From positions 1 through 47,164 of the IMG/VR virus record IMGVR_UViG_3300046096_000127: DNA of 47,164 bases; one strand, 5' to 3'. The stretch comes from a virus. Within the stretch, counting starts at the first letter, position 1, and every line of letters begins with the position of its first letter. Under the pieces are notes generated by a model. It was given only the letters and a program-made list of their open reading frames with translations. It did no database searches and was not told the DNA's origin. Position numbers and translations under genes: made by a program. Shown here one piece after another: positions 32 through 38,052 of the stretch.

Positions 32-86
32 CATGATAAAATAGAGTAGCCCTTCTACCTAGGATATCAATGGCAATCAATTTTCC
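32..86 (+). repeat. 55-bp exact direct repeat, copy 1
   Basis: Bases 32-86 are identical to 12670-12724. The repeat covers the -10 element, the whole leader, the ribosome binding site, the start codon and the first codons (MAINFP) of the two fibre genes at 70 and 12708. The flanking bases differ on both sides, so the identity is bounded. Confidence 0.95.
34..42 (+). promoter_or_regulatory. promoter-like extended -10, fibre cassette 1
   Basis: TG at 34-35 followed one base later by TAAAAT at 37-42 forms an extended -10. The transcript would start near 49 and contain a short GTAG-ccctt-CTAC hairpin and an AGGAT ribosome binding site before the ATG at 70. The same block recurs exactly at 12670, and related motifs head the other cassettes. 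No convincing -35 is visible. It may be read by host sigma factor or a phage-modified polymerase. Confidence 0.6.
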
Positions 87-12646: not shown

Positions 12647-12669
12647 AATCAACCCAACTACTTGATTTA

Positions 12670-12724
12670 CATGATAAAATAGAGTAGCCCTTCTACCTAG
12701 GATATCAATGGCAATCAATTTTCC
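12670..12724 (+). repeat. 55-bp exact direct repeat, copy 2
   Basis: Identical to 32-86. It places the same promoter, leader and first codons in front of the gene at 12708. Recombination between the copies would remove the whole of cassette 1 downstream of the first start codon and fuse its promoter to cassette 2. Confidence 0.95.
12672..12680 (+). promoter_or_regulatory. promoter-like extended -10, fibre cassette 2
   Basis: TG at 12672-12673 and TAAAAT at 12675-12680, within the 55-bp repeat. It lies 24-34 bases after the stop of the previous gene and 28 bases before the ATG at 12708, a spacing that leaves room for a leader with its own ribosome binding site (AGGAT). Confidence 0.6.
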
Positions 12725-15348: not shown

Positions 15349-15376
15349 CTAGACCGTCACAGCAATCTAAATAAGG

Positions 15377-15391
15377 TAAAATTTATATATG
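15377..15391 (+). promoter_or_regulatory. promoter-like -10 placed for leaderless transcription, cassette 3
   Basis: TAAAAT at 15377-15382 is preceded by AAGG and followed by TTATAT and the ATG at 15389. A start point seven bases after the -10 falls on the A of the ATG, so the mRNA would begin at the start codon. No ribosome binding site lies at normal distance: the only AGG is within the promoter, 13-15 bases from the ATG. Confidence 0.5.
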
Positions 15392-19435: not shown

Positions 19436-19476
19436 ATCCTGAGCAACTAAGGACAGTCAGTAAGTAGTGAATGCGG

Positions 19477-19482
19477 TAAAAT
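19477..19482 (+). promoter_or_regulatory. promoter-like -10, fibre cassette 4
   Basis: TAAAAT at 19477-19482 is preceded by GCGG and followed by AGAG-gtaata-CTCT, a potential leader hairpin, then ACCTTAAGGA and the ATG at 19512. The leader resembles that of cassettes 1 and 2 (TAAAATAGAG ... CTACCTAGGA), which supports shared ancestry. Confidence 0.6.
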
Positions 19483-24621: not shown

Positions 24622-24629
24622 GGTAAAAT
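24622..24629 (+). promoter_or_regulatory. promoter-like extended -10, fibre cassette 5
   Basis: TGG at 24621-24623 followed by TAAAAT at 24624-24629. The leader has an ATAC-ttt-GTAT hairpin followed by AGGACATAA and the ATG at 24657. It lies within the 59 bases that separate the stop of the previous gene from the next start. Confidence 0.6.
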
Positions 24630-33160: not shown

Positions 33161-33169
33161 GGGTAAAAT
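33161..33169 (+). promoter_or_regulatory. promoter-like -10 for the membrane protein/phosphoesterase operon
   Basis: GGG followed by TAAAAT at 33164-33169, the same motif as at the fibre cassettes. The region just before it (CCCTTATAGGG, 33153-33163) is itself a short dyad. The leader to the ATG at 33218 has an AGCAA-acttaa-TTGCT hairpin (33177-33192). Sharing this motif with the fibre cassettes suggests co-expression, probably late. Confidence 0.5.
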
Positions 33170-35089: not shown

Positions 35090-36139
35090 ATGAAGGTAGC
35101 GGTTTACTCGATCGCCCTAAATGAGAAGAACTTCTTAAAGCGTTGGTATGCCTCCGCTAAAGAAGCAGACTACATTTTGATTGCTGATACTGGCTCTACA
35201 GATGGTCTAGTTAAGGCAGCTAAAAAACTAGGCATCAACACCTTTGAGATTAAAGTATCTCCTTGGCGATTCGACGATGCCAAGAACTCTGCACTATCAC
35301 TACTCCCTGCAGATATTGACGTTGCAGTGTCTATGGATATGGATGAGGTCCTACTCCCTGGCTGGCGCGAGGAGTTGGAGAAGACATGGGAGCCAGATGC
35401 GACTATTCTCAATCACAAGTACCGCCATAACGGCGGCGCATGGCAGTGGCATTCTAAGATTCACGCTCGTAAAGGTTGCCGCTGGACTGGAGCGGTTCAT
35501 GAAACGCTTACCTGGGCAGGAGATGAGAAGACCTTATGGTCATCGAATATCTATCTGGATGAGTGGCAGGACACTTCAAAAAGCCGTAAAAGCTACCTTG
35601 ATCTTCTACACAAGAAGATTAAAGAGGGAGATACGGATTGGCGCACTAGGTATTTCCTAGCTAATGATTATCAGAATATTGGCAACTTAGATTCTGCAAT
35701 CTTTTGGCGTTCCGAAAGTTACGCTGCTTGCACCGAGGGGCCTATTGTAAAGTCTTACATAGCTAAGAACATCGCAGCAAATTATCAAGAACAAGCAAAT
35801 GTCGAATCTGCTTTAGAGTGGCTAGATGTAAGCCTAGAGCAGAGTAAAGAGCGAGAGACTTTGTTCGCTATAGCAAAACTACATTCAGCACTAGGGAACC
35901 ATCAATCAGCATATAACGCAGCGGTAGATTGTCTAGCTATCACAGAAAAGCGAGATGGCTTCACATATGACTCAGCGGCATGGGGTGCCATCCCGTATGA
36001 CCTACGAGCACTATCCGCTTACTATATTGGTAAGCCAGACGAGGCTTTAGAGTATGGCAAAAAAGCTTTAGAATTAGATCCAGAAAATCAAAGGTTGGTA
36101 GCCAACCTTAAGTGGTACGAGGAAGCAAATGACAAATAA
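35090..36139 (+). CDS. GT2-like glycosyltransferase with C-terminal TPR-like region (349 aa)
   Basis: GT-A fold signatures: VAVYSIALNEKNFLKRW, the nucleotide-binding DTGSTDG (33-39), and the metal-binding DMDE (83-86). The histidine-rich middle (KYRHNGGAWQWHSKIHARKG) and CHETL-like VHETLTW motif fit the catalytic domain. From about residue 190 helical pairs resemble TPR repeats (YFLANDYQNIGNLDSAIFWR, AIAKLHSALGNHQSAYNAAV), useful for binding a protein partner. It begins two bases after the phosphoesterase stop and overlaps its paralog by 11 bases. Confidence 0.75.
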   Translation: MKVAVYSIALNEKNFLKRWYASAKEADYILIADTGSTDGLVKAAKKLGINTFEIKVSPWRFDDAKNSALSLLPADIDVAVSMDMDEVLLPGWREELEKTWEPDATILNHKYRHNGGAWQWHSKIHARKGCRWTGAVHETLTWAGDEKTLWSSNIYLDEWQDTSKSRKSYLDLLHKKIKEGDTDWRTRYFLANDYQNIGNLDSAIFWRSESYAACTEGPIVKSYIAKNIAANYQEQANVESALEWLDVSLEQSKERETLFAIAKLHSALGNHQSAYNAAVDCLAITEKRDGFTYDSAAWGAIPYDLRALSAYYIGKPDEALEYGKKALELDPENQRLVANLKWYEEANDK

Positions 36140-37217
36140 AGTAAAGACTTGCGTATACGCTATCTCCCTAAACGAGATCAAGCACGTAGACCTATTTATG
36201 GATGCAAACGAAGGTGCTGACCTAGTACTTGTTTGTGACACCGGATCAACTGACGGAACTGTAGAACGTCTACGGGAACGCGGAGCAGTAGTCTATGAGA
36301 TTAGTCAGAAGCCCTGGCGTTTTGACGTTCCTCGCAATACGGCCCTAAGCCTAATCCCCGCTGATATTGACATCTGTCTAAGCATCGACCTAGATGAGTA
36401 TCTACAGCCTGGCTGGGTAGAAGCTATCCAAGCAGCCTGGGATGCTCACGACGGCAACATTCAACGAATCGCCTACGACTACATTTGGAACTGGAAGGAA
36501 GACGGAGTAACTCCTGGAATCCAGTTCTATGCAGACAAGGTACATTCACGTTTTGGTTATCGCTGGCGTCAGCCTTGCCATGAGACGCTCTACTGGGAAG
36601 CCGAAGGGCCGGAGAATAGGATTACTATTCCAAAGGTAGTCTTGCACCACCGAGCTGACCCTACAAAGAGTCGTTCACAGTATCTACCGCTATTGAAGCT
36701 AGCTGTTAAGGAGACCCCTCAGGATGACCGCAGTGCGTTCTACTATGCCAGAGAGCTATTCTTCTACGGCCACTATGATGAAGCAGCAGTAGAGTTTAAG
36801 CGTCACTTGTCTATCCCTACCGCCACCTGGGCACCAGAGCGTGCTGCATCCATGAGATATCTGGCAAAGGTAGAGCCAGCTAATAAGCTGGAGTGGCTAG
36901 ACAAGGCGATAGCTCAAGCGCCAGGCCGTCGGGAACCTTTGGTTGAGTACGCTCAGTTTATGTATGATCAGAAGAACTGGGAAAAGTGCTATGAAGTTTC
37001 TACCGAGGCACTGAGGATTGCAGAAAAGCCTCTAGATTACCTATGCGAGGACTTTGCATGGGGAGAGTTGCCTTATGATCTAGCAGCTATTGCTGCTTAT
37101 AACTTAGGCAAGTATCAAGAAGCTGCAGAGTATGGTGCCAAGGCCGTGGAGTTGAATCAAGAAGATATTCGTCTAAAGACTAATCTTGACTTTTACCTTG
37201 CTGCTTGTTCTTCCTAG
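36129..37217 (+). CDS. GT2-like glycosyltransferase, paralog of the preceding gene (362 aa)
   Basis: Same architecture as its neighbour: AISLNEIKHVDLF, DTGSTDGT (37-44), IDLDEYLQPGW with the DxD motif at 87-89, PCHETLYW, then TPR-like pairs (YYARELFFYGHYDEAAVEFK). Shared LSLIPADIDICLSIDLDE/LSLLPADIDVAVSMDMDE segments show recent common ancestry, so the pair arose by tandem duplication. Both active-site motifs are intact in both copies, arguing for two distinct acceptors or sequential sugar additions. Its 3' end overlaps the convergent whiB gene by 38 bases. Confidence 0.75.
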   Translation: MTNKVKTCVYAISLNEIKHVDLFMDANEGADLVLVCDTGSTDGTVERLRERGAVVYEISQKPWRFDVPRNTALSLIPADIDICLSIDLDEYLQPGWVEAIQAAWDAHDGNIQRIAYDYIWNWKEDGVTPGIQFYADKVHSRFGYRWRQPCHETLYWEAEGPENRITIPKVVLHHRADPTKSRSQYLPLLKLAVKETPQDDRSAFYYARELFFYGHYDEAAVEFKRHLSIPTATWAPERAASMRYLAKVEPANKLEWLDKAIAQAPGRREPLVEYAQFMYDQKNWEKCYEVSTEALRIAEKPLDYLCEDFAWGELPYDLAAIAAYNLGKYQEAAEYGAKAVELNQEDIRLKTNLDFYLAACSS

Positions 37218-37656
37218 CAGCTTGCGAGTGATAAGCCTCAACAGCGTTTGCACTAGTGCGGCTCTGCCAGCTGAACTTACAGTCTAGGCACTCAACCATT
37301 TTCATAGTAGACCAGCGTCCACCGTTAGGTCGGTCAATGGTATTAGTAGTTAGTGAAGATGTTTTTGCCTTACAGTACGGGCATAAAGGGAAACGCTTGT
37401 GGCGCATCTCCTGGCCTTCCCAGTTTACTGACAAGGTTCTACGTATTTTCTTGTAATCTAGGCCACCCCAGATCCCCCAGACCTGCTTAGTCTCTAGAGC
37501 CCACTTGGCACAATCAGCTCGAACAGGGCATTCAAAGCATAGTTTTTTAGCCTCGAACTGCTGGGATGGCTTGTTGGCAAAGAAGCTTTCTATATGCTTA
37601 GCATTTACTGGCTTAGCGCACTCTGCATCTTCGTGCCAGTCTGGAGATTCAATCAA
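37180..37656 (-). CDS. whiB: WhiB-family regulator with extra C-terminal zinc ribbon (158 aa)
   Basis: WhiB proteins hold a 4Fe-4S cluster and control transcription with the primary sigma factor, almost only in actinobacteria and their phages. The four ligands are here as C13, C40, C43 and C49 (LCFECPVRADC), followed by the signature GIWGG (61-65) and a basic stretch (KKIRR, 69-73). Unlike most WhiB proteins there is a further 90-residue tail with CPYC (92-95) and CLDC (123-126), a likely zinc ribbon. The start is a TTG overlapping the previous stop as TTGA; no ATG allows the first cysteine. It is the last gene of the leftward operon. Confidence 0.88.
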   Translation of the reverse strand: MIESPDWHEDAECAKPVNAKHIESFFANKPSQQFEAKKLCFECPVRADCAKWALETKQVWGIWGGLDYKKIRRTLSVNWEGQEMRHKRFPLCPYCKAKTSSLTTNTIDRPNGGRWSTMKMVECLDCKFSWQSRTSANAVEAYHSQAARKNKQQGKSQD

Positions 37657-37994
37657 AAGTCGTAAACCTTAACCCATGTAGTTGGAACTATATTTTCTAG
37701 AACTAGATCTTCAGGATTATCACCGTCAGCATCACAAGAGACAACACTTGTAGAGTCTTCTTCAGATGTTCCGGCATAGCCATGAGTAATCTCGCCACGA
37801 TCAATCATCATGAATCCTTGACTTAGAGAAAGTGCAATGCCTTCACGTTGCAATGCAGAAGCCAATGCCCTACGCACAACTTCGTGCTCGACATCAACAT
37901 GACCTTCTGTATGTAGCATCAAACCGTCAGACATTGCCTGATTGTCAGTGTCCCAAATAAACCAAAGGGACTCGCCAATACGAGAATCTTTCAT
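37653..37994 (-). CDS. uncharacterised protein (113 aa)
   Basis: I do not recognise it. It is acidic and soluble, with ESLWFIWDTDNQAMSDGLML, a helix rich in EVVRRALASALQREG and a strand-like ALSLSQGFMMIDRGE. The C-terminal part has a cluster of acidic residues (SEEDSTSVVSCDADGDNPED). It is joined to whiB by a 4-base overlap, so the two are expressed together. The ATG at 37994 has no strong ribosome binding site. Confidence 0.55.
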   Translation of the reverse strand: MKDSRIGESLWFIWDTDNQAMSDGLMLHTEGHVDVEHEVVRRALASALQREGIALSLSQGFMMIDRGEITHGYAGTSEEDSTSVVSCDADGDNPEDLVLENIVPTTWVKVYDF

Positions 37995-38052
37995 AGAAAG
38001 ATTGTATCTTGACGAATCCCTAGGTTAAGTTACGTTTACCGTGAATTACAAT

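Follow-up and report, generated by a model that had tools for sequence, protein, structure and literature searches.

A WhiB-type regulator with a conserved, putative zinc-ribbon tail in viruses of freshwater actinobacteria

The WhiB–ribbon gene and its neighbours

The WhiB genes of actinophages are well known, and they serve as host markers; as the standard marker gene of actinophages, WhiB is very common in freshwater viromes. The window of this study, the whole 47,164-nucleotide stretch of IMG/VR record IMGVR_UViG_3300046096_000127, comes from a virus of freshwater actinobacteria, which has hundreds of relatives with a WhiB-type regulator and a conserved tail. In the window, this regulator is encoded on the minus strand at 37180..37656, as judged from the open reading frame, a Pfam match and the homologs. 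The gene starts with a TTG codon that shares bases with the upstream gene's TGA stop, and its product has 158 residues (MIESPDWHEDAECAKP...CFECPVRADC...WGIWGG...CPYC...CLDCKFSWQSRTSANAVEAYHSQ...).

The protein consists of a WhiB (Wbl) core, a linker and a C-terminal ribbon, with isoelectric points of 6.1 for the core, 10.4 for the linker and 9.6 for the ribbon and tail. The WhiB domain (residues 7–70; 37447..37638, minus strand) matches the Pfam family Whib (PF02467) with 62.2 bits, above the cut-off of 23.6. Its cysteines C13, C40, C43 and C49 follow the four-cysteine pattern of Wbl proteins (C-x26-C-x2-C-x5-C), and it features the GIWGG turn at residues 61–65, a form of the G[VI]WGG turn of the family, as well as the aromatic residues W7, F25, F26 and W63. 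Wbl proteins carry a [4Fe-4S] cluster, and many of them bind to region 4 of SigA. The basic linker (about residues 71–90, IRRTLSVNWEGQEMRHKRFP; 37387..37446, minus strand) stands out by its conservation in the alignment. The putative zinc ribbon (37183..37395, minus strand), delimited by the alignment and an AlphaFold2 model, combines two CxxC knuckles, C92-P-Y-C95 and C123-L-D-C126 (C-x2-C-x27-C-x2-C), with a PxGGRW hairpin and the helix SRTSANAV; in total, the tail after GIWGG comprises about 90–93 residues. An earlier, sequence-only reading of this stretch had described standard WhiB ligands and a GIWGG turn, followed by an added tail with CPYC and CLDC. It was right in all of these points, including the coordinates and the cysteines, to which we add that the gene lies on the minus strand.

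The WhiB–ribbon gene is the last in a leftward run of replication genes, which also encodes DNA polymerase A, an SNF2 helicase, a PD-(D/E)XK nuclease, an AAA/RecA-like protein and a DUF669 protein. The phages Pumpernickel and A3Wally have a matching order of helicase, nuclease or unnamed gene, RecA-like gene, small genes and WhiB. As in phage DSL-LC01, the gene is convergent with a glycosyltransferase gene and overlaps it; in the window, two adjacent glycosyltransferase genes, both assigned to phrog_13126, occupy 35090-37217 on the plus strand, and it is the second that overlaps the WhiB gene. On its 5' side, the window carries a gene for an acidic protein of 113 residues and pI 4.2 (37653..37994, minus strand), hereafter the partner, whose homologs likewise lie upstream of WhiB–ribbon genes. 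An acidic gene of about 113 codons is found immediately 5' of the WhiB–ribbon gene in all 38 of 38 loci, usually with overlapping stop and start codons. DSL-LC01 also has a partner homolog before its WhiB gene, and so do Microbacterium phages, with weaker similarity.

Conservation, distribution and fold of the tail

A scan of IMG/VR with the WhiB–ribbon protein yielded 70 loci, from which 36 distinct viral members were aligned. These non-identical homologs share 68–79% identity with the window protein, and all eight cysteines, four in the WhiB domain and four in the tail, are invariant among them; they are also kept in the homologs from DSL-LC01 and Pumpernickel (47–51% identity), which bring the set to 38 sequences. 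Within the 36 members, R109, P110, G113, R114, W115, T117, M118, W130 and the run QSRTSANAV are invariant as well. The mean pairwise column identity is 0.744 in the ribbon and 0.685 in the WhiB core, and it is highest, at 0.882, in linker residues 71–87. Given that the ribbon matches or exceeds the core in conservation and that its cysteines do not vary, the tail is more than a chance extension. The search for a WhiB-plus-zinc-ribbon architecture, which the sequence-only reading had suggested, has thus recovered a widespread viral fusion with a constant metal-binding pattern, and not a common WhiB extension devoid of one.

A second scan, made with a ribbon-only alignment that included the distant members, returned 457 relatives. 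A WhiB core is fused in every one of the best 80 of these, and the idea of a stand-alone ribbon was rejected for this set. Among isolated phages, the fusion is carried by DSL-LC01 (129 kb) and the Microbacterium phages Pumpernickel, A3Wally, Cece, Zooman and Big4 (186–195 kb); in GenBank, the ribbon-bearing genes are labelled as WhiB family transcription factor only. In the Arthrobacter phage Atuin, WhiB is followed by a shorter CSFC...CNVC tail without the long hairpin and the SRTSANAV helix, and such shorter CxxC...CxxC tails of Arthrobacter phages may be a divergent form of the ribbon.

Such a tail was not known to the sequence-only reading from host WhiB proteins. No relative was found when about 85,000 cellular genomes were scanned twice with peptide patterns; as these patterns were few and short, the scans could miss a divergent cellular form. 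Among plasmids, no WhiB match covered 80% of the query. A host origin of the fusion was rejected on these results, and as far as the collections searched show, WhiB plus ribbon appears to be a phage architecture.

AlphaFold2, run on an alignment without the two GenBank phage rows, models the whole protein at low-to-moderate confidence (pLDDT 69.6) and the tail alone at 78.9. The modelled tail has a long β hairpin, a short strand and a C-terminal helix. Its top match in the PDB is RPB9 (probability 0.99, TM 0.56 by target, E 0.096), and the Foldseek matches to RPB9, TFIIS and Lar-like proteins have probabilities of mostly 0.85–0.99 at E-values of about 0.05–0.2, none of them reaching 0.001; among the viral matches that have a name, most are TFIIS or Lar proteins. 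The two knuckles and the modelled hairpin agree with each other and may fit a TFIIS/RPB9-type ribbon, for which the Foldseek E-value is about 0.1. Because the fold matches miss an E-value of 0.001, the term ‘zinc ribbon’ rests on the cysteine pattern, its invariance and the model together, which suggest that the tail binds a metal, presumably zinc. The tail shares the C-x2-C...C-x2-C arrangement with the TFIIS, RPB9 and Lar ribbons, but differs from them in its invariant PxGGRW tip and SRTSANAV helix, and it has no family match above cut-off.

The Lar-annotated proteins among the fold matches also allow for the ribbon to be a captured restriction-alleviation domain, fused to WhiB and directed against host restriction. 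The family Lar_restr_allev (PF14354) does match the tail weakly in 7 of 38 members, but its 15.1 bits lie well under the cut-off of 28.6, and membership was rejected. Furthermore, a free-standing ribbon is missing among the best 80 of the 457 matches, and the hairpin and the SRTSANAV-type helix are specific to the WhiB fusion. We consider a Lar-like origin very improbable.

A more serious alternative concerns the target of the ribbon. Its most conserved surfaces are the hairpin tip and the start of the SRTSANAV helix, and not an Arg/Lys-rich face; moreover, its nearest folds, RPB9 and TFIIS, act on polymerase, and the partner is conserved and acidic. The ribbon could accordingly bind RNA polymerase, the partner or a host protein instead of DNA, and the promoter box described below would then be read by a different phage protein, for instance the plain WhiB or an HTH protein. 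However, both the linker and the tail are basic, and known Wbl proteins contact DNA by C-terminal or other basic motifs. We regard such a ribbon as possible, though on the doubtful side.

Promoters of the partner–WhiB unit and of other genes

In the window, the partner gene is preceded on the minus strand by a putative −10 element, TACAAT (38001-38006), which together with the 6 nt to the partner ATG spans 37995..38006 and makes for a leaderless-type start. Upstream of the −10, at a distance of 30 bp, lies a 15-bp box, TTGTAATTCACGGTA (38037..38051, minus strand), which deviates in one position from the consensus TTGTAATTTACGGTA and is the sole site in the window at up to two mismatches. The consensus is composed of alternating repeats (GTAA-TTAC-GTAA). 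Allowing for three mismatches, it is found before the partner–WhiB unit in 44 of 47 distinct loci, where no consensus −35 is present; the box is kept even though the spacer is divergent and the preceding gene differs between the window and its relatives. From the box to a TAnnnT −10, the distance is 19–20 bp in 21 loci and 29–32 bp in another 21, one helical turn apart, but as the rule by which the −10 was picked also requires a nearby start codon, these two spacings are really those from box to start. In the two other box loci, the distances of 12 and 13 bp seem to stem from a wrong choice of −10 by the script. The partner start codon follows about 6 nt past the −10, a distance like that in leaderless actinobacterial mRNAs.

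At up to two mismatches, the box occurs once in four of six records; G010 has a copy with three mismatches in the corresponding position, and none is present in G005 (the phage of locus L066, with the same gene as locus L024). At the box-less locus L024, TTGACT-N17-TAAAAT is in place. A scan of the collection for the exact box returned 118 stretches, of which 80 were examined: 23 have a WhiB gene within 1,100 bp, a few more end before that gene but contain the beginning of the partner gene, and the others appear to be chance occurrences. With one site per genome, a regulon defined by the box was ruled out, and for the same reason the box provides no link to the GGTAAAAT promoter class discussed below. 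In 23 of the 39 sequences checked, a further promoter, TTGACA-N17-TAnnnT, lies about 900–950 nt before the WhiB start. At three Microbacterium phage loci (L073, L074 and L075), we observed a promoter-like stretch before the partner gene, consisting of TTTGCA or TTTGTG followed by TATGAT/ACTATA.

Judged by its sequence, the box promoter has the anatomy of an activator-dependent promoter, and its putative autoregulation by the WhiB–ribbon protein, acting at the box, is the simplest reading.

Beyond this promoter, the sequence-only reading had proposed that the phage uses an unusual −10, TAAAAT. The window contains this hexamer 14 times, which is below the chance expectation, and its over-representation across the window as a whole was rejected. 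However, 6 of the 14 sites sit in intergenic gaps upstream of rightward genes. On the plus strand, GATAAAAT is found at 35..42, upstream of a collagen-like fibre gene, and at 12673..12680, in the same leader, while GGTAAAAT is found at 15375..15382, at 19475..19482 (upstream of a 120-residue protein matching a tail-fibre-assembly family), at 24622..24629 (upstream of a collagen-like fibre gene) and at 33162..33169 (before a small membrane-like protein, with AATAA 16–17 bp upstream of TAAAAT). The hexamers at 37 and 12675 are not independent, as both belong to a duplicated leader (ATGATAAAATAGAGTAGCCCTTCTACCTAGGATATCAATGGCAATCAATTTTCC), the copies of which, at 1-69 and 12647-12707, precede two collagen-like fibre genes.

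In the relatives, two almost exclusive promoter classes are found. Among 314 upstream regions from the window and five relatives, obtained by mechanical gene calling and compared with shuffled sequences, TTGAC[AT]-N16-18-TAnnnT is present in 29 (1.5 expected) and GGTAAAAT in 37 (1.6 expected), and just one region has both. None of 35 GGTAAAAT sites is accompanied by TTGAC, nor is it present in the −35 zone of any of 38 GG/AG/GA-TAAAAT sites, where a weak AATMA element scores 173.7 against a shuffle maximum of 155.8. In three fresh genomes, the TTGAC class was found 19 times (1.1 expected) and GGTAAAAT 12 times (1.1 expected), with none shared; the pre-specified AMTMA was present in 3 of 10 cases (p 0.0025) and an upstream T in 9 of 10. 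The idea of an unusual −10 therefore holds in part: a separate GGTAAAAT class without TTGAC exists, but TAAAAT itself is ordinary, being one base from TATAAT and fitting TAnnnT, so that the odd part is the GG prefix together with the missing −35.

Downstream of GGTAAAAT lie genes for a major head protein and a minor tail protein, for fibres and their assembly, and for a holin-like protein; TTGACA stands before genes for DNA polymerase, for HTH proteins and for a RecE-like protein, and before the glycosylase–partner–WhiB transcription unit. As the TTGAC class also precedes a few tail-like and packaging proteins, this early/late split is a tendency and not a rule. It is plausible that the WhiB–ribbon protein drives the GGTAAAAT promoters. 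A universal link was ruled out, since DSL-LC01 and Pumpernickel have the same WhiB–ribbon protein but lack the motif; the protein is thus not tied to that word. DSL-LC01 has about 20 near-identical promoters of its own, GATTCTAAAGATGTTATAATAGAATC, before small genes (L126-L128; 23,598-40,591 of the record). GATTCTA/TAGAATC inverted arms flank their −10, which suggests a common repressor or activator site.

No Pfam matches to Sigma70_r2 or Sigma70_r4_2 were found in 13 records, which are metagenomic ‘linear’ contigs with no completeness estimates. A second, plain WhiB of about 100–120 residues, without the long tail, is encoded in 9 of 12 relatives (G001–G006, G008, G010 and G012) and could be the switch factor instead. 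In G002, G004 and G008, a GGTAAAATAGA site is located about 60–80 nt past the plain WhiB domain.

Sigma contact, known systems and a possible mechanism

W7, F25, F26 and W63, which we take to correspond to W3, F17, F18 and W60 of WhiB1, are each at least 90% conserved in 36 homologs, and the GIWGG turn is kept in 36 viral relatives. In the Microbacterium phages (L073, L074 and L075), the ribbon is retained and the turn reads GTRAG or GTRGG; its tryptophan is lost, so the sigma contact may differ there. WhiB1, WhiB3 and WhiB7 bind region 4 of SigA via conserved aromatic residues, and WhiB subclasses contact DNA through subclass-specific motifs (PMC10245118, PMC3905903); the conserved tryptophan and other aromatic residues have roles in both sigma contact and cluster stability (PMC10245118). 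By analogy, we infer that the WhiB core docks on region 4 of host SigA.

Such docking could also serve a take-over of the host, in which the protein would compete with host WhiB for sigma and block host genes or superinfection; the ribbon would then stabilize or target it, and the phage promoters would not be its targets. The conserved sigma-contact aromatics fit this, and the WhiB of phage TM4, as cited in PMC10202952, offers a precedent. As far as the TM4-type function is known, it requires no ribbon, however, and the conserved box with its one-turn spacing at the gene's own promoter points to the control of a phage promoter. A take-over of this kind seems distinctly unlikely to us.

One of the closest known systems is WhiB7, an autoactivator whose C-terminal module reads a box beside the −35, while its core holds SigA region 4 (PMC3905903). 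WhiB7 (WblC) of mycobacteria and Streptomyces resembles the phage protein in its Wbl core and C-terminal module. It differs in that it uses a short AT-hook (RGRP) at an AT-rich site by a real −35, whereas the phage protein has no RGR motif in its tail, but a ribbon of about 70 residues, a 15-bp box and no consensus −35, with DNA and sigma binding being predicted. A second parallel is T4 MotA/AsiA, which acts at phage promoters where a −10 is combined with a phage box that replaces the −35 (PMC6755090). The likeness lies in the sequence anatomy of the partner–WhiB promoter, which has a −10 and a box in place of the −35, although the MotA box is centred at −30 and the box described here lies 19–20 or 29–32 bp from the −10. 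The proteins are not homologous, and if the parallel is real, one Wbl–ribbon protein would join both roles. Finally, the WhiB of TM4 and the more than 800 phage loci surveyed in PMC8612146 are likewise phage-borne Wbl proteins, sometimes near replication genes; the words ‘zinc’ and ‘extension’ are absent from that survey. In a literature search mainly of openly accessible journals, phage WhiB together with a zinc ribbon led to one unrelated paper and no other, so the novelty is provisional. New here are the TTGTAATTTACGGTA box at the partner–WhiB unit and the two promoter classes.

Overall, we give about an even chance to the following: the protein is a sigma-binding Wbl activator whose ribbon provides specificity for DNA or polymerase, which is autoregulated at the box and has a part in a promoter switch. 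The Fe-S cluster-bearing WhiB core would dock on region 4 of the primary sigma factor of the host, while the basic linker and the ribbon, placed like the AT-hook of WhiB7, would touch upstream DNA or polymerase. In many relatives, the upstream TTGACA promoter would start early expression with unmodified host polymerase. The WhiB–ribbon protein and its acidic partner would then be made from the activator-type promoter, in which TTGTAATTTACGGTA replaces the −35, under WhiB7-like autoregulation at the box, and the factor may take part in a switch to the GGTAAAAT class, found in front of many genes for capsid, tail and lysis proteins. In this scheme, the contacts with sigma and with DNA, the autoregulation and the part in the switch are predictions. 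A one-protein appropriation of sigma in these large freshwater actinophages, which have no detectable sigma factor, is conceivable but unlikely: the Wbl half would grip sigma region 4 and the ribbon read DNA, first for autoactivation at TTGTAATTTACGGTA and then at the GGTAAAAT promoters of structural genes.

The WhiB–ribbon protein is hence a good but unproven candidate for a factor that redirects host RNA polymerase during infection. For large actinophages without a detected sigma factor, an extra DNA- or polymerase-directed module, a single box and a late-gene promoter class would together make a testable proposal for how the gene programme is controlled.
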